From positions 1-32,183 of the forward strand of contig JARXAU010000008.1 of assembly GCA_029865675.1 (NCBI GenBank): a stretch of 32,183 nt of DNA, read 5' to 3'. Below the pieces are notes generated by a model. It saw only the letters and a program-made list of their open reading frames with translations. It was not told the origin of the DNA and did not search any database. Of this stretch, positions 1 to 23,026 are shown in pieces (the stretch's first letter is position 1; each line of letters opens with the position of its first letter). The translations under genes were made by a program, and so were the position numbers. The stretch comes from Rhodoferax sp. (GTDB taxonomy: Bacteria > Pseudomonadota > Gammaproteobacteria > Burkholderiales > Burkholderiaceae_C).

Positions 1-2
1 TC

Positions 3-1403
3 CGCGCCAGTGCCGGCCTGGCCGCTGCGGCCGCCGCCCCAGGCCTGCGCCTGCACCTGCCTCTGGCCATGGGCCTGGCCGGCCTCGGGGCACTGGCCAG
101 CCAACGCGCCCAGGGCGCCGGCATCCAGGACGGCTACAAGGCCCTGGTGTGCCTGTACCTGGCTGGCGGCAACGACAGCCACAACTGGCTGCTGCCCACC
201 GACCCCGGCAACCGCGCCACTTACGCCACCGCCCGGGGTGAACTGGCCTGGCCCACCGCCCGCGTGCAAGACATCGGCCAGGGCGGCCAGGCCAGCGGCC
301 GCAGCTTTGGCATGCCGGTGGAACTGGCGCCGCTGCGGCGGTGGTACAGCCAGGGCAAGCTGGCCTGGCTGGCCAATGTGGGCACGCTGGTACGGCCCGT
401 CACCAAGGCCGATTTCCAGGCCGGCGTGGGCCTACCGGCCAAGCTGTTCAGCCACAACGACCAGGCCGCCACCTGGCAGAGCCTGCAGCCCGAAGGCGCG
501 CGCAGCGGCTGGGGCGGGCGCATGGGCGACATCCTGATGGCGGCCAACCAGCAACCGGTGTTCACCGCCGTGTCGGCCAGCGGCAATGCGGTGTTTCTCA
601 GTGGCAGCCAGGTCACGCAATACCAGGTGGGCACCAACGGCCCGGTGGCCATCAATGGCGCGCAAGACGGCTGGCGTGCCGGCAGCAGCACCGTACCGGG
701 TGAACTGCGCAAGCTGCTGGCCGGCAGCGGCGCCAACGCCTTCGAGGCTGAATACCTGCGGGTGGTGCAGCGCAGCCTGGCCACCAGCGGCGCGCTGCAG
801 GCCGCCCTGGCCGCCGGCCCGGCGCTGGATCTGCCCACCGCCCCCATCACCTTGCCCGCCGGCACGGCACTGGCGCTGAACAACGACACCCTGGCCCGGC
901 AGCTGCGCATCGTGGCGCGCATGATCGCCGCCGGCCCGGCCATGGGCATGAAGCGGCAGGTGTTCATGGTCAGCGTGGGCGGCTTCGACACCCACAGCTT
1001 CCAGATGCGCGACCAGCCGCTGCTGATGGGCCGCCTGGCCCATGCGGTCGATTGGTTCCTGCAGACCATGCAGGCCCAAGGCCAGTTCAACAACGTGGTG
1101 CTGTTCTCGGCCAGCGACTTCGGCCGCGCCTTGGCCAGCAACGGCGACGGCTGCGACCACGGCTGGGGCGGGCACCATTTCATGGCTGGCGGTGCGGTGC
1201 GGGGCGGGCGCATCCACGGCACCATGCCCATCAATGCCCTGGGCACCACCAACGACCTGGGCGCCGGCCGCCTGCTGCCCAGCACCGCGGTGACGCAGTA
1301 CGCCGCCAGCCTGGGCAGCTGGATGGGCCTGGGGCCGGCTGATCTGGCCACGGCGCTGCCGGGGTTGGGCAACTTTGGGGGTGGGTTGGCGCTGGTGGCT
1401 TGA
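3..1403 (+). CDS. DUF1501 family protein, 5'-truncated by window edge (frame is open from base 3; Tat/secretion-like N-terminus)
   Basis: Open frame from the window start (RASAGLAAAAAAPGLRLHLPLAMGLAGLGALASQRAQGA...). DUF1501-like motifs GGNDSHNW, SVGGFDTHS.QMRDQP, SASDFGRALASNGDGCDHGWGGHHF. Strong similarity to the second DUF1501 copy at 12371..13783. Confidence 0.88.
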   Translation, partial: RASAGLAAAAAAPGLRLHLPLAMGLAGLGALASQRAQGAGIQDGYKALVCLYLAGGNDSHNWLLPTDPGNRATYATARGELAWPTARVQDIGQGGQASGRSFGMPVELAPLRRWYSQGKLAWLANVGTLVRPVTKADFQAGVGLPAKLFSHNDQAATWQSLQPEGARSGWGGRMGDILMAANQQPVFTAVSASGNAVFLSGSQVTQYQVGTNGPVAINGAQDGWRAGSSTVPGELRKLLAGSGANAFEAEYLRVVQRSLATSGALQAALAAGPALDLPTAPITLPAGTALALNNDTLARQLRIVARMIAAGPAMGMKRQVFMVSVGGFDTHSFQMRDQPLLMGRLAHAVDWFLQTMQAQGQFNNVVLFSASDFGRALASNGDGCDHGWGGHHFMAGGAVRGGRIHGTMPINALGTTNDLGAGRLLPSTAVTQYAASLGSWMGLGPADLATALPGLGNFGGGLALVA

Positions 1404-2957: not shown

Positions 2958-4070
2958 ATGAAAACTGCCCTGATCACCGGCGTGACCGGCCAAGACGGCG
3001 CTTACCTGAGCGAACTGTTGCTGAAAAAAGGCTACATGGTGCACGGCATCAAGCGGCGGTCGAGCCTGTTCAACACCGACCGGGTGGACCACCTGTACCA
3101 GGACCCGCATGTCGACAACCAGCGCTTCAAACTGCATTTTGGTGACCTGACCGACAGCACCAACCTGATCCGCATCGTGCAGGAAACCCAGCCCGACGAG
3201 ATCTACAACCTGGGCGCCATGAGCCATGTGGCCGTGAGCTTCGAGCAGCCTGAATATGCAGCCGACGCCGACGGCATCGGAACGCTGCGCTTGCTGGAAG
3301 CCATCCGCATCCTGGGGCTGACCAAGAAAACCCGCTTCTACCAGGCCAGCACCAGCGAGCTGTATGGCCTGGTGCAAGAAATCCCGCAGAAGGAAACCAC
3401 GCCCTTCTACCCCCGCAGCCCCTATGCGGTGGCCAAGATGTATGCCTACTGGATCACGGTGAACTACCGCGAGGCCTATGGCATGTATGCCTGCAACGGC
3501 GTGCTGTTCAACCATGAAAGCCCGTTGCGCGGCGAAACCTTCGTCACCCGCAAGATCACCCGGGCCATTGCCCGCATTGCGCTGGGCCTGCAAGACTGCC
3601 TGTACCTGGGCAACATGAGCGCCCTGCGCGACTGGGGCCACGCGCGTGACTACGTGCTGATGCAGTGGATGATGCTGCAGCAAGAGCAACCCGACGACTT
3701 TGTGATTGCCACCGGCGTGCAGTACAGCGTGCGCCAGTTCGTTGAAAAATCAGCCGCCGAGCTGGGCGTCACGCTCAGCTTCCAGGGTGAAGGCGAAGCC
3801 GAGATCGGCGTGGTGGCCAAGGTGACGGGCGACAAAGCCAAGTGCAAGGTGGGTGACGTGATCGTGCGGGTTGACCCGCGCTACTTCCGCCCCACCGAGG
3901 TGGAAACCCTGCTGGGCGACCCGAGCAAGGCCAAGGCCAAACTGGGCTGGGAGCCCACCACCACCCTGGACGAGCTGGTGAAGGAAATGGTGCTGGCCGA
4001 CTACACCGCCGCCCGCCGCGATAGCCTGGTGAAAATGGCCGGCTTCCAGGCCTACGACTACAACGAGTGA
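2958..4070 (+). CDS. gmd: GDP-mannose 4,6-dehydratase
   Basis: [36 protein letters not shown]..., [58 protein letters not shown] are canonical GMD motifs. Confidence 0.97.
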
Positions 4071-4338: not shown

Positions 4339-4724
4339 TGCTTCTCGACACCCATGTGTGGCTGCGATGGCTTTCGCCCGTTGACATGCCATTGCCCACG
4401 CAGGTGATCGATGTGCTGGAGGCAAACACCGACCTTGCGGTGTCTGCGGTTTCTTGCTGGGAAGTGGCCTATCTGGCGAAGCGCGGCCGTTTGCAGTTGC
4501 CCTTGCCGCTGGCCGATTGGATGTCGGAGGCCCTGGCTGGATCTGGCATTTCCTGCATACCGCTCGACGCGCAGATTGCAACAACCGCAGCTGAGTTGTC
4601 AGACATCCACCGAGACCCGGCAGACCGCTTCATCATCGCCACCGCGCTGGCAACACGCAGGCGTTTGTTGACGCTGGACAGCGTGATTCCGCATTACCCC
4701 GAACTGCAGGGCCATTTGGCATGA
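4335..4724 (+). CDS. PIN-domain toxin (VapC-like), apparently intact
   Basis: [65 protein letters not shown]: conserved acidic residues of type II PIN toxins are present. GTG or the next ATG (4338) may be the start. Confidence 0.88.
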
Positions 4725-5701
4725 CCCCCCAATCCCGCATCTATATCGCCGGCCACCGCGGCCTGGTGGGCAGCGCCATCGTGCGCCGGCTGCAGGCCGC
4801 TGGCCACAGCAACCTGCTGCTGCGCACCCATGCCGAGCTGGACCTGACCGACGCCCGCGCCACCGAAGCCTTCTTCAAGGCTGAGCGGCCCGAGTACGTC
4901 TTCTTGGCCGCCGCCAAGGTGGGCGGCATCGTGGCCAACAACACCTACCCGGCTGAGTTCATCCGCGACAACCTGGCCATCCAGACCAACGTGATCCATG
5001 CGGCCTGGCAGGCCGGCGTGCAACGCCTGCTGTTCTTGGGCAGCAGCTGCATCTACCCCAAGCTGGCACCCCAGCCCATGCCCGAGAGCTGCCTGCTGAC
5101 CGGCCCGCTGGAGCCCACCAACCGCCCCTATGCCCTGGCCAAGATTGCCGGCATTGAAATGTGCTGGAGCTACAACCGCCAGTACGGCACCCGCTACCTG
5201 GCGGCCATGCCCACAAACCTGTACGGCCCGGGCGACAACTACCACCCGACCAACAGCCATGTCATCCCGGCGCTGATCCGCCGGTTTCATGAAGCCAAGC
5301 TGCGCGGCGACAGCGTGGTGACGGTGTGGGGCACCGGCACCCCCAAGCGCGAGTTCTTGTACAGCGACGACATGGCCGACGCCTGCGTGTTCTTGATGCA
5401 CCTGCCCGACGACCGCTACACCAGCCTGCTGGGCAGCGACGAAAGCGTGACAGGCCGATTTGAGCCGCCGCTGGTGAACATCGGCGTGGGCCATGACGTG
5501 ACCATTGCCGAACTGGCCGCCGTGGTGCAACAGGCCGTGGGCTACACGGGGCAGATCAATTTCGACCCCAGCAAGCCCGACGGAACGCCACGCAAGCTGA
5601 TGGATGTGGGCCGCATCAATGCCCATGGCTGGATCGCCAGCACGCCCTTGCAGGCCGGGCTGGCCGTGGCTTACCAAGAGTTTCTGGCCTCGGGCGCCTG
5701 A
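4721..5701 (+). CDS. fcl: GDP-L-fucose synthase
   Basis: [116 protein letters not shown]. Confidence 0.97.
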
Positions 5702-6521: not shown

Positions 6522-9500
6522 ATGCTGCCCCCATTGAACTTGTTCCACAAGGCACGTTTTGCCTGCATGGTCTTGATTGTTTGTTTGACAACAGCTTGCG
6601 GAGGGGGGAGCCCGGCCGATACGGGGCCTGGCGCACAAGCTGAGCGTGCACCGGCGCCCGAGGCAGACAGCCAAGCTGGGCCCACAAAGCAACGGCAATC
6701 AGTAACGATAAACGCAGAAGGCCTGGCAACAGCGCTGGTTGTGCGCGCCCACGGTGTGTCGGCAGGTGGCGTCGGCCCGATCATGCAGGTGTGGGCAAAC
6801 GGCGTTCTGATTGGGACAGTTGAAGTCCGGGCGACGCTGCCCACTGACTACGGGTTCACAGTTCCGGGTCTGCTGGTTGGAACGCGTCTGGATATCGTGT
6901 TCACCAACGACGCTACCGTTGGTACATCCAACCGCGACTTGATCGTCACCCATGCTGTTGCCGGCAAGACGCTAGTACTGCCCACGGCACCCAACGTGAC
7001 CTATGACCGCGGTATCGGCACCGCCGCATTCGACGGCGCTGATGTGATCAGTGGTCGGTCAGACATGGGCTGGAGTGGAGCCTTGCGCATGACCTGGCCC
7101 GAACCCAACCTGACCAGCACTGTCACCGTGCGCGCCAGCGGCACGCTGGCCGACGGCGTGGGCCCTGTGATGGCCCTGCGCGTGGACGGCGTGGTGATGG
7201 GCAGCACCGAGGTGCGGTCCACCGAGCCCGCCGACCATGTGTTTGCCGTGTCCCCGCTGGCCGTGGGCAGCAGGATCGACGTTGTCTACACCAACGACGC
7301 CACCATCAACGGGCAAGACCGCAATCTCAACGTGCACTACCTGATGGCGGGCACCACCGTGCTGTTGCCTAACGCGCCAGGTGTCACGCTTGACCTGGGC
7401 AGCGGCCTGGCGGCATTTGATGGTGTGGGCGTGCAACCCGGCCAGTCCAGCATCACCAGCAACGGCGCGCTGCGCGGCCGATGGCCCGCCGCCAACATGA
7501 CCGACACGCTCACCGTGCGGGCCAGTGGCACGCTGGCAGGCAATGTCGGGCCCATGATGCTGGTGCTGGTCAACGGCGTGGTGCTGGGCACCACCGAAGT
7601 GCGCAGCACCACGCCCACTGATCTGCGCTTTGCCACCCTGCCCCTGCAACCCGGCGCCCAGGTGCAGGTGCGCAACACCAACGCCGGCAACCTGAACCTG
7701 GCCTACACCATGGCGGGCAAAACGGTGTTGCGCCCTACCGATGCAAGGATGCAAGCCAGTGCCGCGACGGCGCTGGACGGCCCTTGGCCGCAACCTAATC
7801 TCACCGACACCATCACCGTGCGCGCACGGGGCACGCTGGCCGGTGGTGTGGGCCCCGTGATGCAGGTGCTGATCGACGGCGTGTTGGTGGGCACCGCTGA
7901 AGTGCGCAGCACAGACTTTGCCGACTACAGCTTCCCCGCCTTCGCCATGCAACCAGGGCGCAAGGTCGATGTCGCCTTCACCAACGACGCATTGATCAAC
8001 GGGGCAGACCGCAATCTCTTCGTCGCCTACCTGCTCTCTGGCAACACCTTCCAGTTGCCCAACGCCAGCGGCAACACATTCGACCGTGGCGCTGGGGCAG
8101 CAGCCTTCGATAGCACCGACGTCATAGCAGGCACTGGCAACCTGCCCGACAACGGCGCGCTGCGCACCACCTGGCCGCTGCCCAACATCACCAGCAGCGT
8201 CACCGTGCGCGCCAGCGGCGCCCTGGCAGGCAACGTCGGGCCCATCATGCGGCTGTGGGTTGATGGCGTGGCCGTCAGCAGCGTCGAAGTGCGCGCAACC
8301 AGCCCTACCGACTACAGCCTGCCCACCCCACCGCTGCAGCCCGGCAGCAGGGTCAACGTCACATTCGACAACCCCGCCACCGTGGATGGCGCACAGCGCC
8401 GGCTAGACCTGGCCTACCTGATGGCCGGCACCACCGTGCTGAAGCCCAGCACCAGCGGCGCGGTGTATGCCGCCGGCAACCTGCAGGCCAGCTGGCCGAC
8501 GGCCAACCTCACCGACACCCTGACTGTGCGCGCCTACGGCGTGCTGGCAGGCAACATCGGCCCGATCATGCAGGTGCTGGTGGACGGCGTGCTGGTCGGT
8601 ACGCAGGAAGTGCGCGCCACCGACCCAGCCGACTATCGGTTTCTGGTGCCAGCCCTGAAGCCAGGCACCAAGATCGATGTGGCCTACACCAATGACAGCT
8701 CGGTCAACGGTGTGGACCGCAACCTGTTCGTCTTGCAGCTCATGTCGGGCAACACCTTCCAGTTGCCGACCGCCCCTGGCAGCACCTACGACCGCGGCGC
8801 GGGCGCCGCAGCCTTTGACGGGCTGGACCTGATCCCCAGCACGGGCGCCGTGCACAGCAATGGCGCTGTGCGCATGACCTGGCCCGAGCCCAACCTGACC
8901 AGCACTGTCACCGTACGCGCCAGCGGCACATTGGCCGAAGGCGTGGGCCCGGTCATGGCCCTGCGCGTGGATGGCGTGGTGGTGGGCAGCATCGAGGTGC
9001 GGTCCACCGAGCCCGCCGACCATGTGTTTGCCGTGCCCCCGCTGGCCGTGGGCAGCAGGATCGACGTGGTCTACATCAACGATGCCACCATCAACGGGCA
9101 AGACCGCAACCTCAACGTGCACTACCTGATGGCAGGCACCACCGTGCTGCTGCCAACCGCGCCAGGTGTCACGCTTGACCTTGGCAGCGGCCTGGCGGCA
9201 TTTGATGGTGTGGGCGTGCAGCCCGGACAGTCCAGCATCGCCAGCAACGGCGCATTGCGCGGCAGATGGCCCGCCGCCAACATGACCGATACGCTCTCCG
9301 TGCGCGCCAGCGGCACGCTGTCAGGCAATGTCGGGCCCCTGATGCAGGTGCTGGTCAACGGCGTGGTGCTGGGCACCACCGAAATACGCAGCAGCACCCC
9401 CACTGATTTGCGCTTTGCCACCCTGCCCCTGCAACCGGGCGCCCAAGTGCAGGTGCGCAACACCAACGTCGGCAACCTGAACGTGGCCTATGCCACCGCC

Positions 9501-12371
9501 GGCAACACCGTGATGCGCCCCACCGATGCAGGCGTGCAGGTCAGCGCCACCGCCCCGATGCTGGGCGCCTGGCCCCAGCCCAATCTCACCGACACCCTGA
9601 CTGTGCGCGCCAGGGGTGTGATTGCAGGCAATGTTGGCCCCATCATGCAAGTGCTGGTCGATGGCGTGCTGGTCGGGTCAACTGAAGTGCGCAGCACTGA
9701 CTTCAGCGATCACACCTTCTCCACCTTCCCCATGCTGCCTGGGCGCAAGGTGGACGTGGTCTACACCAACGACGCGACCATCAATGGGGTAGACCGCAAC
9801 CTCTTCGTCGCATACCTGATCGCTGGCAACACCTCTGTTCTACCCAACGCCGCCGGCAACACCTATGACCGCGGTGCAGGCGCAGCCGCCTTCGATGGCA
9901 AGGATGTCATCGCAGGCATGGGCACCATGGCCTGGTGGGGTGCATTGCGCACCACCTGGCCGCAACCCAACATCACCAGCACCGTCACCGTGCGCGCCCG
10001 CGGAACACTGGCAGGCAACATCGGGCCCATCATGCGTCTGTGGGTCGATGGCATCGCAGTCAGCAGCACCGAGGTACGTGCATCCACACCCACCGATTAC
10101 GTCATGCCAACACCAGCGTTGCGGCCGGGCAGCAGGATTGATCTGGCATACACGAATGACGCTGTGATCGATGGCGCCGACCGCAACTTGACAGTGCACT
10201 ATTTGCAGGCGGGCAACACCTATGTGCTGCCAACCATGAACATCGTGCAATACGACCTCGGCAACAACAACGCCGCATTTGATGGGGTCGATCAGCTGCC
10301 GGGGCAAGCCACGCTTGGCTTGGCTGGGGCGTTGCGGCTGGCATGGCCCACCGCCAACGTGACAGACACCATCACAGTACGCGCCTATGCCAACCTTGCC
10401 GGCGGCATTGGCGCGTTGATGCAGTTTCGGGTCGATGGTGTCGTGCTGGGGACCCAAGAAGTGCGGTCTACGACGGGCGCAGACTATCTGTTCGCTGCGC
10501 CACGTCTTTCAACTGGGACCCGCATCGATCTGGCGTTTCTGAATGACTTGAATCTCAATGGAGAGGATCGCAATCTCTACGTCCAGTACATCAAAGCGCA
10601 GGGCACAACCCTGGTTTCCACCGGATCAGGGGTTCAACTAGACCCCGGCGCAGGCGAAGCTGCGTTCGACGGCGTCGGGACTGCTGCAAGTAATGGCGCC
10701 CTCACTGGCAATGGCGCGCTGCGGTTCGCTATGCCCGCCCCCAAGCCAGCGCCAACAGACCTGCAAGCCCAATACGGCGTATCACGCTTCCTGCAGCAAG
10801 CAGCGTTCGGCGGGTCTCTGGCAGAGATCGCCCGATTACAAGCAATGTCCCCAAGCGCTTGGCTTGCTGAGCAGATGGCTATGCCGGCCACACCAGACTT
10901 TGTGACAGCGGTGCAGTCACGGTTTGATCTGGGCGACAGCTGGCGGCCCTTGGGGAACCAGTACTCGCCAACCTGGGCCGCACAGCGTTTCTGGCAGGGT
11001 GCTGCGAGCGGCACCGACGTTCTGCGCAAGCGGGTGGCGTTTGCGCTGCACCAGACCTTGATGGTGTCGCAAGCCGACAGCAATCTGTACTACCAGGTGC
11101 GGCCTTATGCGGCCTACCTCGACACGCTCAATCGCTATGCATTCGGCAACTATCGCCAGTTGCTGGAAGAAGTGGCGCTAAGCCCGGCAATGGGCCTGTA
11201 CCTGAGCCACATGCGCAATCGACCAGAAGACCTGGGAACCGGCCGCATGCCTGACGAGAACTTTGGCCGCGAAGTGATGCAGCTGTTCAGCATTGGCCTG
11301 CAAGAGTTGAACATCGACGGTACGCCGCGGCTGAATACCCGGGGCGAGCCGATAGAGACTTATACCAATGACGATGTGATGGCCATGTCCAAGGTTTTCA
11401 CGGGATGGAGTTGGGCGTTTCCTGACAATGAACTGACAACACAAAACTTCCGCTGGGGCAACCCCGGCACGTCCGCAGCGACCGATAGGCGCATTGACAC
11501 GCTGAAGATGAAGGCGTATCCCGGCCAGCACTCACTTGGCGAAAAGCGGCTATTTGCCGGCAAACCCAATGCCCTGGTGATACCAGCCGGTACCGCTGGC
11601 CCTGAAAGTGTGCGGCTGGCGTTGGACGCGCTGTTCCAGCACCCCAACGTCGGCCCGTTCATCGGCCGACAACTGATCCAAAGGCTGGTGACCAGCCACC
11701 CCAGCAATGGCTACGTGGCACGTGTGGCACAGGTGTTCAACAACAACGGCAGCGGCGTGCGGGGCGACCTGGGCGCAGTGGTGCGGGCCATTCTGCTGGA
11801 CCCCGAGGCATCAAACCCACCGGTAGGCAGCATCGGCAAACTGCGCGAGCCAGTGATGCGCGTGGCGCACTGGATGCGCAGCTTTGGCGCCACGTCGGTC
11901 AGCGGGCAATTCATGTTGGCCTATGAACTGGAATCGCAAGGACAACGCGCGCTTTTCGCCCCGTCTGTGTTCAGCTACTTCCGGCCGGGTTTTGTACCCC
12001 CGAACACAGCTTTCTCCGCAAACAGAATCACAGTGCCAGAGTTCCAGACCGTCAATGAATCAAGCACGGCAATGTGGGCCAACACCGCGTTGGCCATGGC
12101 CGGCACCGGACTTGGGTGGACGGGCACGCGCACCGATGTCACCGCCAACCTGCAGCCGCTGGCAGACCTGTCTGCAGTTGGCGATGTGGATGGCCTGATC
12201 GAACGGCTAAACCTTTTGCTGTATGCGGGCAGGATGAGCGCCACACTCAAGCAAGACTTGCTGGAATCAGTCACCAGCGTCTGGGGCAACGACGCTGCCA
12301 GCCACCTCAACCGTGCCAGAGTGGCCGTGTTCCTTGCCCTCGCATCCCCTGAATACTTGGTGCAACGCTGA
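6522..12371 (+). CDS. Giant lipoprotein: 11 tandem CBM60-like modules + C-terminal DUF1800 domain
   Basis: ORF 6387..12371; the best start is the internal ATG at 6522, giving MLPPLNLFHKARFACMVLIVCLTTAC|GGG (signal peptide + lipobox). Repeated TVRA.GtlaG.vGPiM.v.VDGV.vG..EVRst.p.DY.F......G..iDV.yTNDa.inG.DRNL.V.Yl. The C-terminus has YGVSRFLQQAAFGG, NFGREVMQLFSIGLQELN.DG, YTNDDVMAMSKVFTGWSW (DUF1800). Confidence 0.9.
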   Translation: MLPPLNLFHKARFACMVLIVCLTTACGGGSPADTGPGAQAERAPAPEADSQAGPTKQRQSVTINAEGLATALVVRAHGVSAGGVGPIMQVWANGVLIGTVEVRATLPTDYGFTVPGLLVGTRLDIVFTNDATVGTSNRDLIVTHAVAGKTLVLPTAPNVTYDRGIGTAAFDGADVISGRSDMGWSGALRMTWPEPNLTSTVTVRASGTLADGVGPVMALRVDGVVMGSTEVRSTEPADHVFAVSPLAVGSRIDVVYTNDATINGQDRNLNVHYLMAGTTVLLPNAPGVTLDLGSGLAAFDGVGVQPGQSSITSNGALRGRWPAANMTDTLTVRASGTLAGNVGPMMLVLVNGVVLGTTEVRSTTPTDLRFATLPLQPGAQVQVRNTNAGNLNLAYTMAGKTVLRPTDARMQASAATALDGPWPQPNLTDTITVRARGTLAGGVGPVMQVLIDGVLVGTAEVRSTDFADYSFPAFAMQPGRKVDVAFTNDALINGADRNLFVAYLLSGNTFQLPNASGNTFDRGAGAAAFDSTDVIAGTGNLPDNGALRTTWPLPNITSSVTVRASGALAGNVGPIMRLWVDGVAVSSVEVRATSPTDYSLPTPPLQPGSRVNVTFDNPATVDGAQRRLDLAYLMAGTTVLKPSTSGAVYAAGNLQASWPTANLTDTLTVRAYGVLAGNIGPIMQVLVDGVLVGTQEVRATDPADYRFLVPALKPGTKIDVAYTNDSSVNGVDRNLFVLQLMSGNTFQLPTAPGSTYDRGAGAAAFDGLDLIPSTGAVHSNGAVRMTWPEPNLTSTVTVRASGTLAEGVGPVMALRVDGVVVGSIEVRSTEPADHVFAVPPLAVGSRIDVVYINDATINGQDRNLNVHYLMAGTTVLLPTAPGVTLDLGSGLAAFDGVGVQPGQSSIASNGALRGRWPAANMTDTLSVRASGTLSGNVGPLMQVLVNGVVLGTTEIRSSTPTDLRFATLPLQPGAQVQVRNTNVGNLNVAYATAGNTVMRPTDAGVQVSATAPMLGAWPQPNLTDTLTVRARGVIAGNVGPIMQVLVDGVLVGSTEVRSTDFSDHTFSTFPMLPGRKVDVVYTNDATINGVDRNLFVAYLIAGNTSVLPNAAGNTYDRGAGAAAFDGKDVIAGMGTMAWWGALRTTWPQPNITSTVTVRARGTLAGNIGPIMRLWVDGIAVSSTEVRASTPTDYVMPTPALRPGSRIDLAYTNDAVIDGADRNLTVHYLQAGNTYVLPTMNIVQYDLGNNNAAFDGVDQLPGQATLGLAGALRLAWPTANVTDTITVRAYANLAGGIGALMQFRVDGVVLGTQEVRSTTGADYLFAAPRLSTGTRIDLAFLNDLNLNGEDRNLYVQYIKAQGTTLVSTGSGVQLDPGAGEAAFDGVGTAASNGALTGNGALRFAMPAPKPAPTDLQAQYGVSRFLQQAAFGGSLAEIARLQAMSPSAWLAEQMAMPATPDFVTAVQSRFDLGDSWRPLGNQYSPTWAAQRFWQGAASGTDVLRKRVAFALHQTLMVSQADSNLYYQVRPYAAYLDTLNRYAFGNYRQLLEEVALSPAMGLYLSHMRNRPEDLGTGRMPDENFGREVMQLFSIGLQELNIDGTPRLNTRGEPIETYTNDDVMAMSKVFTGWSWAFPDNELTTQNFRWGNPGTSAATDRRIDTLKMKAYPGQHSLGEKRLFAGKPNALVIPAGTAGPESVRLALDALFQHPNVGPFIGRQLIQRLVTSHPSNGYVARVAQVFNNNGSGVRGDLGAVVRAILLDPEASNPPVGSIGKLREPVMRVAHWMRSFGATSVSGQFMLAYELESQGQRALFAPSVFSYFRPGFVPPNTAFSANRITVPEFQTVNESSTAMWANTALAMAGTGLGWTGTRTDVTANLQPLADLSAVGDVDGLIERLNLLLYAGRMSATLKQDLLESVTSVWGNDAASHLNRARVAVFLALASPEYLVQR
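6723..10740 (+). repeat. Coding tandem array of 11 CBM60-like modules
   Basis: Module starts (by eye): 6723, 7110, 7497, 7800, 8187, 8508, 8895, 9282, 9585, 9972, 10359. Lengths 387, 387, 303, 387, 321 | 387, 387, 303, 387, 387 bp, plus the last module. Confidence 0.88.
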
Positions 12372-13783: not shown

Positions 13784-13997
13784 AGGCAGTTGCCCTGCAG
13801 CGCGCGGGGCATCGGTAACATTTGCTGCACGGGTAGGCGGTGGACGCAGGCACACAAAATGCTGGTGTGCTTTGTGCGTTAGCATTTCTCTGCTGACGAC
13901 TTGTCACAGCCCTGACGGGTGCGAGGCGGATGATCAGGCCCATACATGATGGGCTGGCTACCACCGCCTGCAAGCCCGCCCCGAATCGCAATTGCTC

Positions 13998-15194
13998 ATG
14001 CATTTCATCTTGCTGGTGCACCACGACGCAGATCTTTATGGTGCAGACCAGTCGCTGCTAAGAACCGTGCGGGCCATGAAGGCGAGCCCGTTCACCCCCA
14101 TCGTCACCCTGCCTCACCAAGGCCCGCTGGTTGCGTTGCTGCTGGCTGAAGGCGCAGAGGTACACATTGGCCCGGTGGGCAAGCTGACCCGCCAATTGAT
14201 GCGCCCCGCCGCCCTGCACAGGTTGCTGGCCGACCTGTGGCGATCGGTCAGGTTCATGGGCCGCGTGGTTGCGGGCAGGCCAATCAGCTTGGTGTACACC
14301 AACTCTGTGGCTGCGTTGGGTGGCGCACTGTGGGCTGCGCTGCACCGCAAACCCAAGCTATGGCATGTGCGCGAAATCGTGGTGGCGCCCAAGCTGGCCG
14401 CCGTTGGGTTCCCTACAGTGCTGCAACTGCTTGGTGGTTGGTGCGTGTGCAATTCCAACGCCACTCGGCAGTGGATTGTGGGCACCCGGCCCGCGCTGGC
14501 GCAGCGCAGTTCAGTCATCTGGAACGGGCTAGAAGCCACTACGCCGATCAGGCCAGGCGCTGCTGCTGCGTTCCGCGCCAAGATGGGGCTACAGCCAGGC
14601 GACATAGTGGCCACCCTGGTGGGCCGCATCAACCGCTGGAAGGGCCAGGGCGTGCTGATCGAAGCCGCCCGCCTGCTGAAGGCGCAGGGGCATAGGCAGC
14701 TGAAGTTCTTGATCGTGGGTGACGTGGCCGACGGGCAGAACCATTTCAGGCAAGACATGCTTGCGCAGATTGATGGCGCAGGCGTGCAAGACAGCGTGCT
14801 GTGGCACCCCTTCACCCCCGATGTGAACACCGTGTGGGCGGCGTCTGACATTGCCGTGGCCCCGTCCATCGACCCCGAGCCCTTCGGCCGTGTGGCCATT
14901 GAGGCCATGGCCCAACAGCTGCCCGTGGTGGCCGCCGCCCACGGTGGGTTGGCTGAAATAGTGTTGGACGACGTGACCGGCATCCTGGTGCAGCCAGGCA
15001 GCGCGCCTGCCCTGGCCGCAGCCATTGCCCGCCTGGCCGATGCGCCCACCCTGCGCGCGCAGATGGGCCAGGCCGGCAGGCAACGCCAACAGCAATGCTT
15101 CAGCCAGGCCGAACATGATCAGAAGCTGATGGCGCTGCTGACCACCCTGGCCGCCCAGGGCACACCAACGCAAGCGGCTGCGGCCAAGCCATGA
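13998..15194 (+). CDS. Glycosyltransferase family 4
   Basis: MHFILLVHHDADLYGADQSLLRTV..., VATLVGRINRWKGQGVLIEAARLL, SDIAVAPSIDPEPFGRVAIEAMAQQLPVVAAAHGGLAEIV: GT-B/GT4 signature. Confidence 0.9.
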   Translation: MHFILLVHHDADLYGADQSLLRTVRAMKASPFTPIVTLPHQGPLVALLLAEGAEVHIGPVGKLTRQLMRPAALHRLLADLWRSVRFMGRVVAGRPISLVYTNSVAALGGALWAALHRKPKLWHVREIVVAPKLAAVGFPTVLQLLGGWCVCNSNATRQWIVGTRPALAQRSSVIWNGLEATTPIRPGAAAAFRAKMGLQPGDIVATLVGRINRWKGQGVLIEAARLLKAQGHRQLKFLIVGDVADGQNHFRQDMLAQIDGAGVQDSVLWHPFTPDVNTVWAASDIAVAPSIDPEPFGRVAIEAMAQQLPVVAAAHGGLAEIVLDDVTGILVQPGSAPALAAAIARLADAPTLRAQMGQAGRQRQQQCFSQAEHDQKLMALLTTLAAQGTPTQAAAAKP

Positions 15195-16321
15195 GTACCG
15201 CAACTTCAGGCAACCGCCCCCACTTGCGCATCTTGGGCATCCGCGGTGTGCCCGCAGCCCACGGCGGCTTTGAAACTTTTGCCGAGTACCTTGCACCGTA
15301 TCTGGTGCAACTCGGCTGGCAGGTGACGGTGTATTGCCAGCAAGACAGCGGCAACGGCATCACCCATGACCAATGGCAGGGTGTGCACCGGGTGCACATC
15401 CCCGTCAATGCGGCCGGTGCGGCCGGCACCATCGTGTTTGACTGGTTGGCCACCCGGCATGCATCGCGCACCCAAGACCTGTGCCTGACCCTGGGCTACA
15501 ACACAGCCGTGTTCTGCGCCCTTCTGCGCTTGAAGGGCGTGCCCAACGTCATCAACATGGACGGCATTGAATGGTCGCGCGCCAAGTGGGGCCCGCTGGC
15601 CAAGGCCTGGTTCTGGCTGAACGAGCGCGCCGGCTGCTGGCTGGGCAACCACCTGGTGGCCGACCACCCTGCCATCAAGCAGCACCTGGCCACCCGCGTG
15701 CGCGCCGACAAGATCACCACCATCCCCTACGGCGCTGACCAATTGCACGGCCTACCCACCAGCCCTGTGCTGGCACTGGGCCTGCAACCTGGCAAGTACC
15801 TGACAGTGATTGCGCGACCTGAGCCCGAAAACTCACTGCTGGAGATCGTGGCGGCCTTCTCGCGCCAGCCGCGCGGTGTGCAACTGGCCGTGCTGGGCAA
15901 CTACAGCGATGCCAACCCATACCACCGCGCCGTGAAGGCCGCAGCCAGTGCCGAGGTGAAGTTTCTGGGCGCCATTTACGACAAGACCGTGGTGCAGGCG
16001 CTGCGCCTGCACTGCATGGCCTACATCCACGGCCACCAGGTGGGCGGCACCAACCCGTCATTGGTGGAAGCGCTGGGCGCCGGCAACCCTGTGATAGCGC
16101 ATGACAATGCCTTCAACAGGTGGGTGGCGGGCGACGGTTCGCAGTTCTTTCGTGATGTTGAGAGCTTGGCAGAAGCTATCGATTTGATGATTGGCGACAG
16201 GAAACTGAGCCAAACCATGAAGCTAGCAAGTTTACGCAGATTCAAAGATGGATTGACTTGGCCGAGTGTTCTTGAGCAGTACAACGACTTGTTGGCCAAA
16301 TCAATGGCCAAAACCAGTTGA
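15191..16321 (+). CDS. Glycosyltransferase with DUF1972-type N-terminus (rhamnosyltransferase-like)
   Basis: LRILGIRGVPAAHGGFETFAEYLAPYLVQLGWQVTVYCQ, NMDGIEWSRAKWG, YIHGHQVGGTNPSLVEALGAGNPVIAHDNAFNRWV. Confidence 0.9.
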   Translation: MSTATSGNRPHLRILGIRGVPAAHGGFETFAEYLAPYLVQLGWQVTVYCQQDSGNGITHDQWQGVHRVHIPVNAAGAAGTIVFDWLATRHASRTQDLCLTLGYNTAVFCALLRLKGVPNVINMDGIEWSRAKWGPLAKAWFWLNERAGCWLGNHLVADHPAIKQHLATRVRADKITTIPYGADQLHGLPTSPVLALGLQPGKYLTVIARPEPENSLLEIVAAFSRQPRGVQLAVLGNYSDANPYHRAVKAAASAEVKFLGAIYDKTVVQALRLHCMAYIHGHQVGGTNPSLVEALGAGNPVIAHDNAFNRWVAGDGSQFFRDVESLAEAIDLMIGDRKLSQTMKLASLRRFKDGLTWPSVLEQYNDLLAKSMAKTS

Positions 16322-16335
16322 GGCAGAAAGCACAA

Positions 16336-17874
16336 ATGCAACAGCCTATCAAAGTACTTCCAATCTTCATTTGGATGCTGTTTCTGGTATTGGCACTGCT
16401 AATCGGCCTGGCAATTCCTTTACTGCCAATGAAAGTGTCCACAATCTTCGGGCTGATGATCATTACAGCAATGGGCATAATTGTTGCCTTCTTATTGCCA
16501 GCTAGAGAGTCGGTGCCAGAACGCATGATTGCGGCACTTTTGGTACTTGCAATTGCCAGCAAATTTTTATGGCCGAGCTTTTCTTATATTCCAATTCCAG
16601 GGCTGCCAACCAAGAACCCACAGCGCTTAATTTGGGCTGCCTGTTTGCTATATTGGGTGTACACCCTCATGGTAAACAAAGAACTTCGCGAGAGATTGGC
16701 GAAGAGACTATCACAATCAAGCACATCACTTTTGGTTGGTATATTTTTTACGTGGCGGTTCATTGCCATTTTCAATAGCGATTACCCTGACGTTTCAGTT
16801 CGCATATTTTTGTTAGAGCTTTTTGACTATGTTCCAGCCTATCTTTTTGCGTTAACTTGGCTGAAGCATTCAATTGATGTTCGGCGCATTACTACATCAC
16901 TGGTTGTGGTGTTGATTTGCATCCAGTTTATTACATTGATTGAAGTAATTACCAAAAGCAATCTGTTCTTGGCACTGGTGCCCACGGATACATCGAGCGA
17001 AGAATTTTTAGCTGCCGCGACTGAAACCAAGATGCGCGCTGGCTTTTACCGTGCACAGGCGTCATTCAACCATCCACTTCTATTGGCCCAGTTTGCGGTG
17101 TCCGTCCTGCCACTTGTATTGGCTGGCCTGTTCGCGAAAGGACAGATGCTACGTAGGGGACTGTCTGTTTTTGCCCTTCTGGGTATCCCAATGATTCTTT
17201 GGGCAACCCAGACAAGAACTGCCATGGCAAGCGCTGCAGTGGTGGTTGTTGTTGCGGGGCTGCTTGTTGCCTACAACGCCGCCACGGTAAAGCAACATGG
17301 TTTCAATAAGAATATCGGCGGTACCATTTTCCTTCTATGTGGTTCTCTTCTGGCAGTAGCCGCGCTGTTTTTGGTAATTGGCTTGGCGGAAGGGCGAACG
17401 GCTGAAGAATCTGGCAGTACTTTTGCCAGGGTTCTTATGCTGGAGCTGGCCTTGGATGCAGCAAAAGATTCGTGGCTATTGGGATATGGCCCAGGTGTGG
17501 GCGGCTACAAAGCAGCATTGACCAGCAGCAATGGCAGATCTTCTTTGGACAGCCAAATTCTGAGCCAATTGCTAGAGGCGGGCGTTGTCGCAATGGTCGT
17601 TTACAGTCTCTTCTTCTTCCAGGCTGGCAAGCGATTTTTCGGGTTAGCGAAAGTTGCGGGTACAGAAGCAGGGATTACCTATGCGATGTGGTGCCTGACC
17701 GTGGTCATATTCGGCTTCACGTCGCTCGTGCTATCGACACCGCACAACATGCCGCTACTGTTTTTTGCTCTTGGGGCGATTGTCGTCTTGAAGGAAACTT
17801 CCATCTCAGCGGCTTCGGCAACCCAAGAAAAACGACAGCTTTTCATGCGCCCGAATTTTCTTCGGCACGAATAA
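16336..17874 (+). CDS. O-antigen ligase/Wzy polymerase-like integral membrane protein
   Basis: Many hydrophobic segments; QTRTAMASAAVVVVVAGL and the large-loop motif LLGYGPGVGGYKAALTSSNGRSSLDSQILSQLLEAGVVAMVVYSLFF. Start set at the ATG at 16336; the ORF track extends to 16318 via TTG. Confidence 0.78.
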   Translation: MQQPIKVLPIFIWMLFLVLALLIGLAIPLLPMKVSTIFGLMIITAMGIIVAFLLPARESVPERMIAALLVLAIASKFLWPSFSYIPIPGLPTKNPQRLIWAACLLYWVYTLMVNKELRERLAKRLSQSSTSLLVGIFFTWRFIAIFNSDYPDVSVRIFLLELFDYVPAYLFALTWLKHSIDVRRITTSLVVVLICIQFITLIEVITKSNLFLALVPTDTSSEEFLAAATETKMRAGFYRAQASFNHPLLLAQFAVSVLPLVLAGLFAKGQMLRRGLSVFALLGIPMILWATQTRTAMASAAVVVVVAGLLVAYNAATVKQHGFNKNIGGTIFLLCGSLLAVAALFLVIGLAEGRTAEESGSTFARVLMLELALDAAKDSWLLGYGPGVGGYKAALTSSNGRSSLDSQILSQLLEAGVVAMVVYSLFFFQAGKRFFGLAKVAGTEAGITYAMWCLTVVIFGFTSLVLSTPHNMPLLFFALGAIVVLKETSISAASATQEKRQLFMRPNFLRHE

Positions 17875-17898: not shown

Positions 17899-18915
17899 AT
17901 GTTCGAAAGCCAAGCCCCAAGCGGCAATCAAAATCGCATCTATGTAGTTCTTCTCAATTGGAACGGAGCTGCGGATACGCTAAACTGTTTACAGTCGCTT
18001 CTGCAAATTCAAACCAACCGGGTTGACTATGTGGTTTGTGACAACGCCTCCAGTCAGAAAGACTTCACCTCGCTTCAAACCGGTGTGGCTGATTTTTGCA
18101 CTGCCAACTCAATAAGGTTGCAGTGCTTCGAATCAAAAAACTGGCCAACGACGATTTGCCCAGCCAATGGCCCAAAGAATCTATTCTTGATTCAAACCGG
18201 TTCGAATCTCGGCTTCGCTGGCGGTGTAAATGTTGGACTTCGATTTGCGCAGAGTCGCGGAGACTTGGCTTATGCGTGGATTTTGAACAATGATTGCGAA
18301 ATTTCATCAGGTGCACTGGAAACATTGGTTTCGCGTTCAATGGCTGAGCAAACCATCGGCATCTGCGGGTCCACTTTGGTCTACCACGGCGACAGAAGCC
18401 GCGTGCAAGCCTTGGGCGGCGCACGCTACCTGCCATGGCGCGGGCGCTCACTGTCCATTGGCGCGTTTTCGGCAGCAAACACCATTCCCACCGATCCAAC
18501 CCGAGTGGAGCGCCAGTTGGACTATGTTGTCGGCGCGTCAATGCTGGTCAGCCGCAAGTTTCTGGATGTGGTTGGCTTGATGGACGAGCGCTATTTCCTC
18601 TATTCCGAAGAACATGACTGGGCACACCGTGGCCGGCAAGCTGGCTTCACATTGGGTTGGGCACCAGATTCAGTGGTGTTCCATAAACACGGTGCCAGCA
18701 TCGGCAGCTCGGCCAGTGGCGGTTCGCCGCTTTCGATGTTCTATCTTTTCCGTAGCAAAGTCCTTTTTACTTCACTGCACTTCCGCAGACGCTTGCCGGT
18801 TGTGTTGATGTCGCTCGCAATGGACGCGTTGAAGTTCGCATTGAAAGGCCACCCCAGCAAGACATGGGCAGCTTTGCGCGGCATGCTGTCCTACAACGGC
18901 CCAGCTCGTTTTTGA
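17899..18915 (+). CDS. Glycosyltransferase family 2 (rhamnosyltransferase-like)
   Basis: IYVVLLNWNGAADTLNCLQSLLQ, VDYVVCDNASSQ, GSNLGFAGGVNVGLRFA, WILNNDCEIS, DERYFLYSEEHDWAHRGRQAGF. Confidence 0.9.
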   Translation: MFESQAPSGNQNRIYVVLLNWNGAADTLNCLQSLLQIQTNRVDYVVCDNASSQKDFTSLQTGVADFCTANSIRLQCFESKNWPTTICPANGPKNLFLIQTGSNLGFAGGVNVGLRFAQSRGDLAYAWILNNDCEISSGALETLVSRSMAEQTIGICGSTLVYHGDRSRVQALGGARYLPWRGRSLSIGAFSAANTIPTDPTRVERQLDYVVGASMLVSRKFLDVVGLMDERYFLYSEEHDWAHRGRQAGFTLGWAPDSVVFHKHGASIGSSASGGSPLSMFYLFRSKVLFTSLHFRRRLPVVLMSLAMDALKFALKGHPSKTWAALRGMLSYNGPARF

Positions 18916-18933: not shown

Positions 18934-19641
18934 ATGCTCAGGAACCTGCTTAACAAATTTGCAACGCGCGTTAAGGGCAGCGACTACCAACTCGATCCAA
19001 AGCTGCCACTGCTCAGTCTGGTTGGTTTGGCTTCGCGTCGTTTGACATGGCTGATCCGTGGCAGGTTGGCTTTTCCTTTGCGACGATCAGCCATCTATTT
19101 GGGTGACGGTAGCGTGCTGCGCAACCGTGCGCAAATGTCTTTCGAGCCCGGTGTCACCATCGGCCGTGGTTGCGTAGTTGATGCGCTGTCTGCCAATGGC
19201 CTGCGCATTGGCAGAAACGTCAACATCGGCCCCTACACCACCATTCAGGCCAGCGGCGTGTTGTCACGCCTCGGCACGGGCTGTTCGATCGGCGCAAATT
19301 CGGGCATTGGTGGCTATTCATTCATTGGTTGTGGTGGCGGCGTTGCCATCGGCAGCAATGTGATCATGGGCCAATACGTCAGCTTTCATTCCGAGAACCA
19401 TGTCATTGACCGAACTGATGTGCCGATTCGAGTCCAAGGTGTGGTCCGCAAAGGGATCGTGATTGAAGATGACTGCTGGGTTGGCGCCAAAGCCACGTTC
19501 CTGGACGGCTGCCACGTTGGTAAGGGCTGCGTTGTCGCCGCAGGCGCCGTGGTGCGCGGCAACATCCCCCCTTACTCCATCATCGGTGGCGTGCCAGCTA
19601 AGGTCATTCGCAGCCGACTGGCAGTAGACAGTAGTGCATGA
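18934..19641 (+). CDS. Left-handed beta-helix (hexapeptide repeat) acyltransferase
   Basis: Hexapeptide repeats (IGRGCVVDALSANGLRIGRNVNIGPYTTIQ...IGSNVIMGQYVSFHSENH...DDCWVGAKATFLDGCHVGKGCVVAAGAVVRGNIPPYSIIGGVPAKVI). Confidence 0.9.
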   Translation: MLRNLLNKFATRVKGSDYQLDPKLPLLSLVGLASRRLTWLIRGRLAFPLRRSAIYLGDGSVLRNRAQMSFEPGVTIGRGCVVDALSANGLRIGRNVNIGPYTTIQASGVLSRLGTGCSIGANSGIGGYSFIGCGGGVAIGSNVIMGQYVSFHSENHVIDRTDVPIRVQGVVRKGIVIEDDCWVGAKATFLDGCHVGKGCVVAAGAVVRGNIPPYSIIGGVPAKVIRSRLAVDSSA

Positions 19642-20894
19642 ACCCAATGCCGATCATGAAGCGCGTCACACTGTTTTCAACGGACATTCCATACCCAGCC
19701 AACCGCGGAGGTAGAGCGGATATCTGGCGCAGAGTGTTGGCGCTTTCGAGATTGGGCGTTGCAGTTCAGCTTGTGTGCTTCTTCGATGACGTTTCTGGCA
19801 AGCGGCCAGAGCAACAGCACCTTGAAGCAGTTCGCGCAGCCACGGCGGGCTTGCTGCTCTATCCGATCAAGCAAGGCAAGCGCGCATTGCTTGAGGCACT
19901 TATCAAGTTGCCGCAGATGCCCTGGCACGTTGCACGCCGGAGCCTGGGCGCGCTGGACCTGCGCGACCTGTGCAGCGTTGTCCAAGAGTTTCAGCCCGAC
20001 TGGCTTTGGTGTGAGGGCCCCTGGTGCGGGCCGCTAGTCCTTGCAGTGCATGACCATATCCAGGTCCCTGTCGCTTACCGTTCCCACAACCTTGAACATG
20101 TGTACATGGCGCGGCAAGCCAGTGCTGCCCGCCGCCCGCGCGATCGACTGGCATGGACCATTGCATGCGTGGGGCTGAGACGGTTTGAGCAGCAAATGCT
20201 GACCACAGCCGACTGGGTGTTCGACATCTCCTTTGACGACATGGCTTTCTGGCAGGCCCAAGGCATCCGAAACATCAGTTGGTTGCCACCAATTGCCGAG
20301 TCTGCGTTGGGCATGGGCACCAGCGCAGATCTGCCGTATACCGAACAAAAGCACGATGTGCTCTTTCTCGGCAACCTGACCACACCCAACAACGTGCGCG
20401 GGGTCGAGTGGCTGGTGAATGAGATTCGGCCCCTTGTGCTGGCGCAACGGCCGGGCACGCAGTTTGTGGTGGCGGGGTCCAACCCTGGCGAGCATGTTCG
20501 CAACCTGTGCAAAGCACCCAACGTCACCTTGCTGCCCAACGTCGCCGACGCTTTGGCTCTATACCGCCAGGCCCGCGTACTGGTAAACCCGGTGCGCACG
20601 GGCAGCGGCACCCATGTCAAGGCGATCGAGATGCTGATGATGCGTACGCCCATCGTCACGTCCACCCAAGGCACGCAGGGCATGCCCGCCGAAGTGAAGC
20701 GCCTGTTCAAGGTAGCCGACACCAGTGAAGCCTTTGCCAGCCATGTGCTGACAGCGTTGGACCAGCCCACTGACTGCTGGCATGAGCGATCAGACGCGCG
20801 GCGCCTGTTTAGTGTGCAGGGTCTGGCAGACGCATTGGCCAAGCTGCCGATGGCGACGGCCTTGCCCGCATTGCAACGCGCTGGTACGGCATGA
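19638..20894 (+). CDS. Glycosyltransferase family 4
   Basis: VTLFSTDIPYPANRGGRADIWRRVLALSRLG, DVLFLGNLTTPNNVRGVEWLVNEIRPLV, FVVAGSNPGEHVRNL, RQARVLVNPVRTGSGTHVKAIEMLMMRTPIVTST. Confidence 0.88.
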   Translation: MNPMPIMKRVTLFSTDIPYPANRGGRADIWRRVLALSRLGVAVQLVCFFDDVSGKRPEQQHLEAVRAATAGLLLYPIKQGKRALLEALIKLPQMPWHVARRSLGALDLRDLCSVVQEFQPDWLWCEGPWCGPLVLAVHDHIQVPVAYRSHNLEHVYMARQASAARRPRDRLAWTIACVGLRRFEQQMLTTADWVFDISFDDMAFWQAQGIRNISWLPPIAESALGMGTSADLPYTEQKHDVLFLGNLTTPNNVRGVEWLVNEIRPLVLAQRPGTQFVVAGSNPGEHVRNLCKAPNVTLLPNVADALALYRQARVLVNPVRTGSGTHVKAIEMLMMRTPIVTSTQGTQGMPAEVKRLFKVADTSEAFASHVLTALDQPTDCWHERSDARRLFSVQGLADALAKLPMATALPALQRAGTA

Positions 20895-23026
20895 CAACGC
20901 CGGCGCGCAGCAGCAGGCTGACTGGGCAACGCCGCTGGCTGCTGCAACGGCTGGCCATGTTGGCCACAGCCCCCGCATGGCTGCGCCCAGTGAACGCTGC
21001 CGCAGCAGGGGCAAACACGGAGACATTCTTTGCGATGGTGTTGCGCAGGGTGCGTGACGACTACATGGCAGAAGGCGGGCCGGGCGACGCCACGCGCTTT
21101 GTAGCGACCATCAACACCAACGGCACCTGGGACGACGTGGACTATGCAGACCGCGGCATTGGCGACTGGCGCCCGATGCCGCACTTGGTGCGCCTGCGCC
21201 GCATCGCCCGTTCGCTGGCACAACCGGGGCAGGCGCCCCCAGCCATGCAGACGGGCACTGATGCCCTGAACCGTGGGCTGCGCGCCTGGTTGCAACGCAA
21301 GCCCATGTCTGACAACTGGTGGCACAACACAATTGGCCAGCAAAGGGAAATTGGTCGCGTCATCGTGCTTGGTCGCGCATTGTTGGATGAAGACATCGCG
21401 GTGCAGGCCATAACCCTGCTGCAAGACCCAGGGATGGTGCCACCAGCCCAAGCGACGGGACAAAACCTCACTTGGTACGCCACACAGCAAGTGCTGCGTG
21501 GCGCATTGCGGAACGATGCTGGTGATCTGGTGCGCGCCAGCGCCGCGCTGGCATCCACCTTGCGCATCACGTTGGACGAAGGAATCCAGCCCGACTTCAG
21601 CTTTCACCAGCACGGTGCCCAGTTGTATACCGGCGGCTATGGCCTCGGCTTTTTGCAAGACAACGTGCAGCTTGCCGCATGGCTGGCAGGCACGCCCTGG
21701 GCATTGTCTGGCAGCGGGCTGGACTTGCTTGCCAACTACGCGTTGCGCGGCATGGTGCCGCTGCTGCGGGGCACGCAGTGGCTGGAGTGGGGGGCGCGTG
21801 GGCGCGAATTCACCCGCAAGGAAGACTTGCCACGGCCCGGTCTGGTGGCCAATGCGATGGTGCGGCTGGCGCCGCTGGTGCCAAGGCGCAGCACCGACCT
21901 GTCAGCCGCTGCGGCGCGCACCAAGGTGGGTGGGCCACCACCGGCGACAACCAACCAGTTGTTCTGGCGATCCGACTTCATGGTGCACCAGACGCGCAGT
22001 GTCTACATGTCAGTCAAGATGTGCAGTGCCCGCACGGTGGGCACCGAGTCAGGCAACGGCGAAAACTTGCAGGGGTTCTGGTTGCCCTTTGGCGTGACTT
22101 ACCTGTTGCGCCGGGGTGATGAATACGATGGCTTACCGCCGGTATGGAACTGGTCGGCCCTGCCAGGCTTAACGGCACCCGATGCCGTACCACCGCTAAA
22201 GGGCTACCAGACTCACCAAGCGCAGTTTGTCGGCGGCGTGTCGGACGGTGCAACCGGCGTGGCGACCATGGCGCTGGACAAGTTGCAGACAACCGGCAGA
22301 TTGAGCTGGTTCTTCATGGGCGACACGATGGTGGCCATGGGCGCTGGTATCCGATCCACCCATGACCACCCGATAGCGACCACGCTGAATCAATGCCGCT
22401 GGACTGGCCTGGTACACACCAGCGCCGGCCCATTGCCCGAAAGGGGCGACCGCACATCGACTGCAGGGGCCCGGTGGCTTTGGCACGACGGGCTGATGTA
22501 CCTGCCGCTGGACGGGCCGGATCTACTGGTCCAACGTGAGCACCGCACGCAGAGCAGCAGTGCTATCAACAGTGCCCTTGGTGCGACCAATGCCAACGCC
22601 AAAGTGTTGACGATCGCCATGCAGCATGGCCTGCGGCCTGCTGGGGCGAAGTTTGCCTACGCTGTGTCTACCCCTACAGCAATGCCAGTTAGTGCCACTG
22701 TGGACTTGAAGCTGCAAATTCTTTCGAACAGCGAATCCCTGCAAGCCCTGCGCTGGCTGACGACCAGCCAAATCATGGCGGTGTTTCACGCCAAGGGGAG
22801 CCTTCTGATTCGAGAGGGCCTCACGCTGGACGTTGACTCGCCCTGCATCTGTCTCATCACTGCGCAAGCTGGCGAATTTGCGATCGGCGTTGGCGATCCA
22901 ACACGGCGCCTGGGCCAGATCGGGTTGAACCTGCGCAACAACGCCGGCAAATCACCCAGCATCAAGTTGACACTTGGCAGTACGACGCCCATACCTTACC
23001 AGGACACGTGGGTAGGGCAACTTTGA
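20891..23026 (+). CDS. Polysaccharide lyase family 8-like (hyaluronate/chondroitin/xanthan lyase fold), exported
   Basis: N-terminal GQRRWLLQRLAMLATAPA (twin-arginine-like signal); NWWHNTIGQQREIG, ITLDEGIQPDFSFHQHGAQLYTGGYGLGFLQD (PL8 Asn/His/Tyr motifs), LLRGTQWLEWGARGREFTR, FFMGDTMVAMGAGI. Confidence 0.85.
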   Translation: MTTPARSSRLTGQRRWLLQRLAMLATAPAWLRPVNAAAAGANTETFFAMVLRRVRDDYMAEGGPGDATRFVATINTNGTWDDVDYADRGIGDWRPMPHLVRLRRIARSLAQPGQAPPAMQTGTDALNRGLRAWLQRKPMSDNWWHNTIGQQREIGRVIVLGRALLDEDIAVQAITLLQDPGMVPPAQATGQNLTWYATQQVLRGALRNDAGDLVRASAALASTLRITLDEGIQPDFSFHQHGAQLYTGGYGLGFLQDNVQLAAWLAGTPWALSGSGLDLLANYALRGMVPLLRGTQWLEWGARGREFTRKEDLPRPGLVANAMVRLAPLVPRRSTDLSAAAARTKVGGPPPATTNQLFWRSDFMVHQTRSVYMSVKMCSARTVGTESGNGENLQGFWLPFGVTYLLRRGDEYDGLPPVWNWSALPGLTAPDAVPPLKGYQTHQAQFVGGVSDGATGVATMALDKLQTTGRLSWFFMGDTMVAMGAGIRSTHDHPIATTLNQCRWTGLVHTSAGPLPERGDRTSTAGARWLWHDGLMYLPLDGPDLLVQREHRTQSSSAINSALGATNANAKVLTIAMQHGLRPAGAKFAYAVSTPTAMPVSATVDLKLQILSNSESLQALRWLTTSQIMAVFHAKGSLLIREGLTLDVDSPCICLITAQAGEFAIGVGDPTRRLGQIGLNLRNNAGKSPSIKLTLGSTTPIPYQDTWVGQL

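Follow-up and report, generated by a model that had tools for sequence, protein, structure and literature searches.

A DUF1800 protein with eleven CBM60 modules and its DUF1501 partner in a polysaccharide gene cluster of Rhodoferax sp.

Genes of the locus

The DNA analysed (hereafter the window) is a stretch of 32,183 nucleotides from Rhodoferax sp. On the forward strand, positions 6522-12371 form a single open reading frame encoding a 1949-aa protein that begins with the N-terminal signal MLPPLNLFHKARFACMVLIVCLTTAC. The signal peptide with its lipobox (6522..6599, +) fits a PROSITE-type pattern, with Cys26 encoded by 6597-6599 and followed by GGG, and the LTTAC signal described in the earlier note was thus recovered. 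Asp is absent at position +2 of the LTTAC-GGG stretch (aa 22-29), by which the protein is predicted to be an outer-membrane lipoprotein. The same CGGG start is found in the array proteins of Rubrivivax pictus and Pelomonas. The array protein of Burkholderiales C2 (L032, 5693-11587) has YSNGGG where its relatives have the lipobox Cys-GGG, and it may escape lipidation because there is no Cys at this position. Two DUF1800 proteins without CBM60 (L037 and L038) start with a RRVFAQHSALAASAAAALTACGGG-like sequence, in which a Tat signal and a lipobox are combined.

When the protein was compared with Pfam, 11 matches to CBM60 (E 5.1e-135; 440.8 bits against a cut-off of 28.2) and one to DUF1800 (10785..12359, +; aa 1422-1946; E 1.2e-77; 266.7 bits) were obtained, in agreement with the earlier assignment of 11 CBM60-like modules and DUF1800 to one polypeptide. 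The DUF1800 match reaches across profile positions 1-418 of 419 and a DUF1501 gene is adjacent, as in DUF1800 (PF08811) proteins. This DUF1501 gene (12371-13783, +; Pfam E 8.4e-29) encodes the partner of the array protein. The stop codon of the array gene and the ATG of the DUF1501 gene share one base (TGATG), which bears out the reported overlap with a Tat-signal DUF1501 gene, the match to the Tat motif being weak. The match scores exclude chance as the source of the CBM60, DUF1800 and DUF1501 calls.

The pair is surrounded by genes for polysaccharide synthesis. On the plus strand, a GDP-mannose 4,6-dehydratase family gene (2958..4070; Pfam E 2.2e-153) and a gene for an NAD-dependent sugar epimerase/dehydratase (4721..5701; Pfam E 3.9e-66) precede the array gene. 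The DUF1501 gene is followed, also on the plus strand, by genes for a GT4 glycosyltransferase (13992..15194), a glycosyltransferase with DUF1972 that resembles the rhamnosyltransferase Cps2T (15191..16321), a membrane protein of the Wzy_C / O-antigen ligase type (16318..17874), a GT2 glycosyltransferase (17899..18915), a hexapeptide acyltransferase (18934..19641), another GT4 glycosyltransferase (19638..20894) and a PL8 polysaccharide lyase (20891..23026; E 4e-60), which is predicted to be exported by virtue of its twin-arginine-like N-terminus QRRWLLQR. A Wzx-type flippase (Pfam) is encoded on the minus strand (30953..32182), and the cluster also contains further acyltransferases. Relatives of the Cps2T-like glycosyltransferase scoring 557-559 bits lie beside the C2 and Paucibacter arrays. 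Between a UbiA/HAD gene and a methyltransferase gene there is a 575-aa open reading frame (28163-29887, -), for which Pfam gave no match at E <= 0.01.

The first 1403 positions of the window hold a second DUF1501 gene (1..1403, +; Pfam E 2e-28), a member of a second pair that was absent from the earlier note. Its reading frame (3-1403) is entered within the signal region, the 5' end being cut by the contig start (position 1 is the start of contig C32). The encoded protein is 90% identical to that of a Burkholderiaceae MAG relative, and in the DUF1501 tree it groups with the partners of single-CBM60 proteins (100/100) and not with array partners. In Rubrivivax pictus and Pelomonas Root405 a single-CBM60 pair and an array pair stand complete in the same tandem arrangement, part of which is also visible in the MAG RIFCSPHIGHO2_12_FULL_69_20. 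Taking into account this tandem and the position in the tree, a single-CBM60 DUF1800 gene very likely lies just upstream of position 1, off the contig. A third, unrelated DUF1800/DUF1501 pair is located at the end of contig C74 of the same genome.

Architecture and relatives of the CBM60 array

All 11 modules exceeded the CBM60 family cut-off when the genome was searched, ten of them singly and one only together with its neighbours, so that the HMM check proposed in the earlier note ended with a match to a carbohydrate-binding family. The array has a 2x5+1 layout: a five-module block occurs twice and is followed by a single terminal module. The first block (all modules on the plus strand) comprises m1 (6714..7100) with the variant loop TNDATVGTSNRDL, m2 (7101..7487) with an intact loop, m3 (7488..7790) without loop and without the C-terminal extension, m4 (7791..8177) with an intact loop, and m5 (8178..8498) with a degenerate loop and without the extension. 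The second block starts with m6 (8499..8885, loop intact) and continues with m7 (8886..9272, loop INDATINGQDRNL), m8 (9273..9575, without loop and extension), m9 (9576..9962, loop intact) and m10 (9963..10349, loop intact). The terminal-type module m11 (10350..10736, loop LNDLNLNGEDRNL) adjoins DUF1800. The module lengths are 129, 129, 101, 129 and 107 aa in the first block, 129, 129, 101, 129 and 129 aa in the second, and 129 aa for m11. Between the blocks, identity is 95% for m2/m7, 79% for m3/m8, 74% for m4/m9 and 60% for m5/m10.

The TND..DRNL loop, previously ascribed to all 11 modules, was present in eight (m2, m4, m6, m7, m9, m10 and m11, and as a variant in m1), but it is lost from m3 and m8 and degenerate in m5. 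These three modules are short, and the array is thus not the uniform series that had been described. In the sequence alignment the TND..RN/DL loop of the eight modules coincides with FTNDATGRDV of the xylan-binding vCBM60 (2xfd), a correspondence of aligned letters rather than of ligand residues superposed in three dimensions. The Pfam match spans about 86 residues of each module of about 129 aa; the remainder is a conserved extension with the motif ..YDRG.G.AAFDG....G...NGALR..WP, which is absent from xylanase CBM60s. When the modules of the window and its relatives were taken together, none of the 13 short modules had the loop and most of the 43 long ones did, in counts of modules that are not independent of each other and with a search pattern that overlooked a few intact loops starting with V. 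Loop and C-terminal extension therefore tend to vanish jointly, and m3, m5 and m8 may be spacers.

Module order and module types recur in the 11-module arrays of Rubrivivax pictus and Burkholderiales C2, and partly in Pelomonas and Paucibacter; the three complete arrays, from three genera, have 11 modules each. The C2 modules follow the same rhythm of lengths (125, 130, 94, 129 and 109 aa; 129, 130, 94, 129 and 109 aa; 129 aa), and in protein sequence m2 equals m7 and m3 equals m8 in this array. In a tree of 56 modules, types 2, 3 and 5 each formed one clade across genomes, as did the terminal type (across five genomes) and all single modules, and types 1 and 4 gave no clean clades. The loop or a close variant is kept in most species by types m1, m4 and terminal. 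These observations suggest that the array is ancient and ordered, with copies kept alike inside each lineage. The Pelomonas array has six modules in the public assembly, a count that is not reliable because four lone Ns fit a collapse of near-identical copies during assembly, and the array of Paucibacter PLA-PC-4, which ends at a contig end, has at least seven. The four single N bases of the Pelomonas locus (L031) are at 8272, 8479, 8875 and 9468, all within the array. The six Pelomonas modules had suggested that array length is free to vary, a notion dropped on account of these Ns and of the contig end in Paucibacter.

The array-type DUF1800 domains formed one clade (support 99/98) and their DUF1501 partners a matching single clade (97/98), from which it follows that the pair is inherited as a unit. 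Between R. pictus (L030) and the window the path was 0.12 for the single-type DUF1501 and 0.40 for the array-type, which points to faster evolution of the array pair or to a recent move of the single pair.

That so long an array is unusual, as had been supposed, was confirmed by the survey of genomes. DUF1800 was found in 108 of the 151 genomes of the family and CBM60 in nine, with more than three CBM60 matches in just three, the window's genome included; the one congener searched had no array. In a phylum sample of 399 genomes CBM60 occurred in six, and more than two matches were found in the window's genome only. A joint literature search for CBM60 and DUF1800 yielded no paper.

The DUF1800/DUF1501 pair and its genomic context

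The AlphaFold model of the DUF1800 domain (pLDDT 91.3, pTM 0.92) is almost entirely helical and gave no match to solved structures (best E 0.053, probability 0.13). In comparison with solved structures the modelled fold may thus be new, and, the model being confident, an experimental structure would probably show a new fold. When the sequences of DUF1800 and DUF1501 were compared with those of solved structures, no usable relative was obtained, and a function was not found in the literature for either. In all 24 DUF1800 loci of named genomes DUF1501 was immediately adjacent. The N-terminal parts of other DUF1800 proteins carry CHRD, PA14/GLEYA with Calx-beta, PKD, cadherin or Ig domains. A plasmid search returned DUF1800 genes at less than 60% identity only.

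The model of the DUF1501 protein, built with 28 sequences (pLDDT 82.7, pTM 0.83), had 73 PDB matches at E <= 0.001, and the 50 listed were nearly all sulfatases and alkaline phosphatases, the best among them being the choline sulfatase 6g5z (E 6.7e-6). By this model DUF1501 has the alkaline phosphatase/sulfatase fold, in line with the clan to which the earlier note had assigned it. The superfamily members with a similar fold include SPAP (3q3q), the E. coli alkaline phosphatase and a carrageenan sulfatase (6b0j), but identity is about 10%, the TM-scores are low (0.25-0.38) and DUF1501 has no sequence relative in the PDB. Residues D63, H156, D333, H335, D389 and H390 are invariant across the 28 sequences and, as D, D/H and DH residues of the metal-site type, are candidates for the metal site that would be expected in this superfamily; S155/H156 is the candidate nucleophile site.

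All five array loci lie within polysaccharide-biosynthesis clusters of differing gene content, a linkage which, since the loci share descent, does not amount to five independent events. The C2 locus has glycosyltransferases, a pyruvyltransferase, an exosortase and a chain-length-type protein; that of R. pictus has a glycosyltransferase, Wzy, Wzx, Wzz, a pyruvyltransferase, a heparinase-type lyase and, by panel match, an exosortase. ManC and WbsX-type genes are found at the Pelomonas locus, GT4 and WbsX-type genes at that of Paucibacter. No exosortase was found in the window's genome, of which the assembly is 70% complete, and the exosortase link is therefore not claimed here.

At 11 loci encoding DUF1800 without CBM60 there was no match to a panel of 28 proteins, and among the 25 listed of the 143 Pfam families found in 111 neighbouring open reading frames of CBM60-free loci there was no glycosyltransferase family. 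Single-CBM60 loci away from arrays had panel matches in two cases of six (L028 and L039) and none in the other four. Since the panel was drawn partly from array loci, for the array loci themselves it is the Pfam calls that constitute the evidence. A general tie between DUF1800 and polysaccharide clusters was rejected on the evidence of the control loci without CBM60 and of the single-CBM60 loci. Because most CBM60-free loci and four of the six single-CBM60 loci away from arrays are outside such clusters, the core job of the pair cannot be confined to a cell's own exopolysaccharide. The survey of CBM copy number and EPS adjacency called for in the earlier note thus found arrays that are rare and in all five cases in polysaccharide clusters, and sampled CBM60-free loci that are not; together with the CBM60 matches, these results speak against both outcomes named there as refuting, i.e. 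modules resembling no carbohydrate-binding fold, or similar arrays being common and without a link to polysaccharide loci.

Relation to known systems and possible function

The pair and CBM60 are themselves already known, and the array protein is a new variant of the former. CBM60 has been described from xylanases (PMC9107766, PMC4444583). With the vCBM60 of the Cellvibrio japonicus xylanase (2xfd, 2xfe, 2xhh, 2xhj) and the GH11-CBM60 enzymes, the array modules share the core strands, the ND..RD/RN loop and PF16841 scores well above cut-off, whereas the array protein has 11 copies, in a chain in which no catalytic enzyme domain is recognised. The modules lack the Cys/Trp-rich C-terminal part of vCBM60 and have the extra AAFDG..GALR extension of about 43 aa; with the Cys/Trp-rich part absent, the ligand of the array may differ from xylan. 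With A3, a narrow profile of the modules, 2xfd was not matched directly. DUF1800/DUF1501 pairs (PF08811/PF07394; COG5267/COG4102) elsewhere have the same two domains, adjacent and co-oriented, with a Tat-type DUF1501 (PMC5122149), but are without CBM60 or have CHRD, PA14, PKD or cadherin domains at the N-terminus. Bacterial chitin synthase genes have been reported in operons with DUF1800/DUF1501 (PMC5122149), which independently connects the pair with a gene for making a polysaccharide, although with chitin synthase and not with a Wzx/Wzy-type cluster.

We consider it quite possible, if short of probable, that the array protein is an outer-membrane-anchored, multivalent, calcium-dependent binder of the polysaccharide that the cell itself exports, on which DUF1800 docks a DUF1501 hydrolase or transferase. 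This reading builds on the observed domains, gene order, module order, clades and cluster linkage, and on the modelled fold of DUF1501. After export and lipidation at Cys26 the array protein would be anchored in the outer membrane, where the two five-module blocks and the terminal module would grip recurring sugars of the polysaccharide that the neighbouring genes produce, the eight modules with the calcium-type loop binding and the three short ones serving as spacers. The C-terminal DUF1800, beside the terminal module, would dock the co-translated, Tat-exported DUF1501, as the pairing of the genes suggests. DUF1501 might then act on an ester of the bound polymer, such as a phosphate or sulfate, and take it off or transfer it, which would modify the polymer or fix it to the cell. 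The single-CBM60 sister pair would do the same job at low valency. A wider proposal, which we regard as doubtful, is that DUF1800 is a new all-helical fold and forms a two-protein machine with the AP-fold DUF1501, in which its part is docking or catalysis, that the machine is retargeted by swaps of N-terminal binding domains, and that in these Burkholderiales the conserved 2x5+1 array directs the machine to the cell's own exported polysaccharide, to modify or attach it.

The array might instead be an adhesin or scavenging lectin for plant or algal polysaccharides from the environment, to be degraded by the PL8 lyase and DUF1501, the position in the cluster being secondary. The occurrence of CBM60 in xylanases, the lyases at the window and R. 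pictus loci and the adhesion-like N-terminal parts of other DUF1800 proteins would fit such a role, but neither a TonB receptor nor genes for sugar uptake were identified among the window genes scanned, and the array loci are biosynthetic clusters with Wzx, Wzy and glycosyltransferase genes. Lyases frequently belong to polysaccharide biosynthesis clusters in any case. Capture of foreign glycans appears rather unlikely. It is improbable, too, that most modules are structural and that only m11 or a few bind, the array being a stalk of set length that projects DUF1800 or the anchor across the capsule or matrix. The absence of the loop from three modules, its loss along with shortness, the constant number of 11 modules and the sufficiency of one module in single-type paralogues are what such a stalk would predict, yet a pure stalk needs no loop, and the loop is kept in eight modules and, in most species, by three types.

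The array paralogue might also be a chance neighbour, hitchhiking in a variable genomic island with EPS genes while the pair performs a job unrelated to polysaccharide. DUF1800 is widespread in the family, the sampled CBM60-free loci are not near EPS genes and the arrays are patchy, all of which would suit an accidental association. Against it stand the linkage of every array locus to clusters of different content, the sugar-binding modules on the protein itself and the independent chitin synthase operons, and we hold it to be very improbable. Eleven sugar-binding modules inside polysaccharide clusters point to a substrate class for a widespread, uncharacterised pair.

The array locus is also present in isolates (Rubrivivax pictus and Pelomonas sp. 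Root405), so that the function of the pair is open to experiment, and in the 2x5+1 array nature has supplied a series in which avidity and the evolution of repeats can be studied. Another genome of the family encodes single CBM60 modules in two long proteins (L023 and L025), the former of the RTX type by Pfam.
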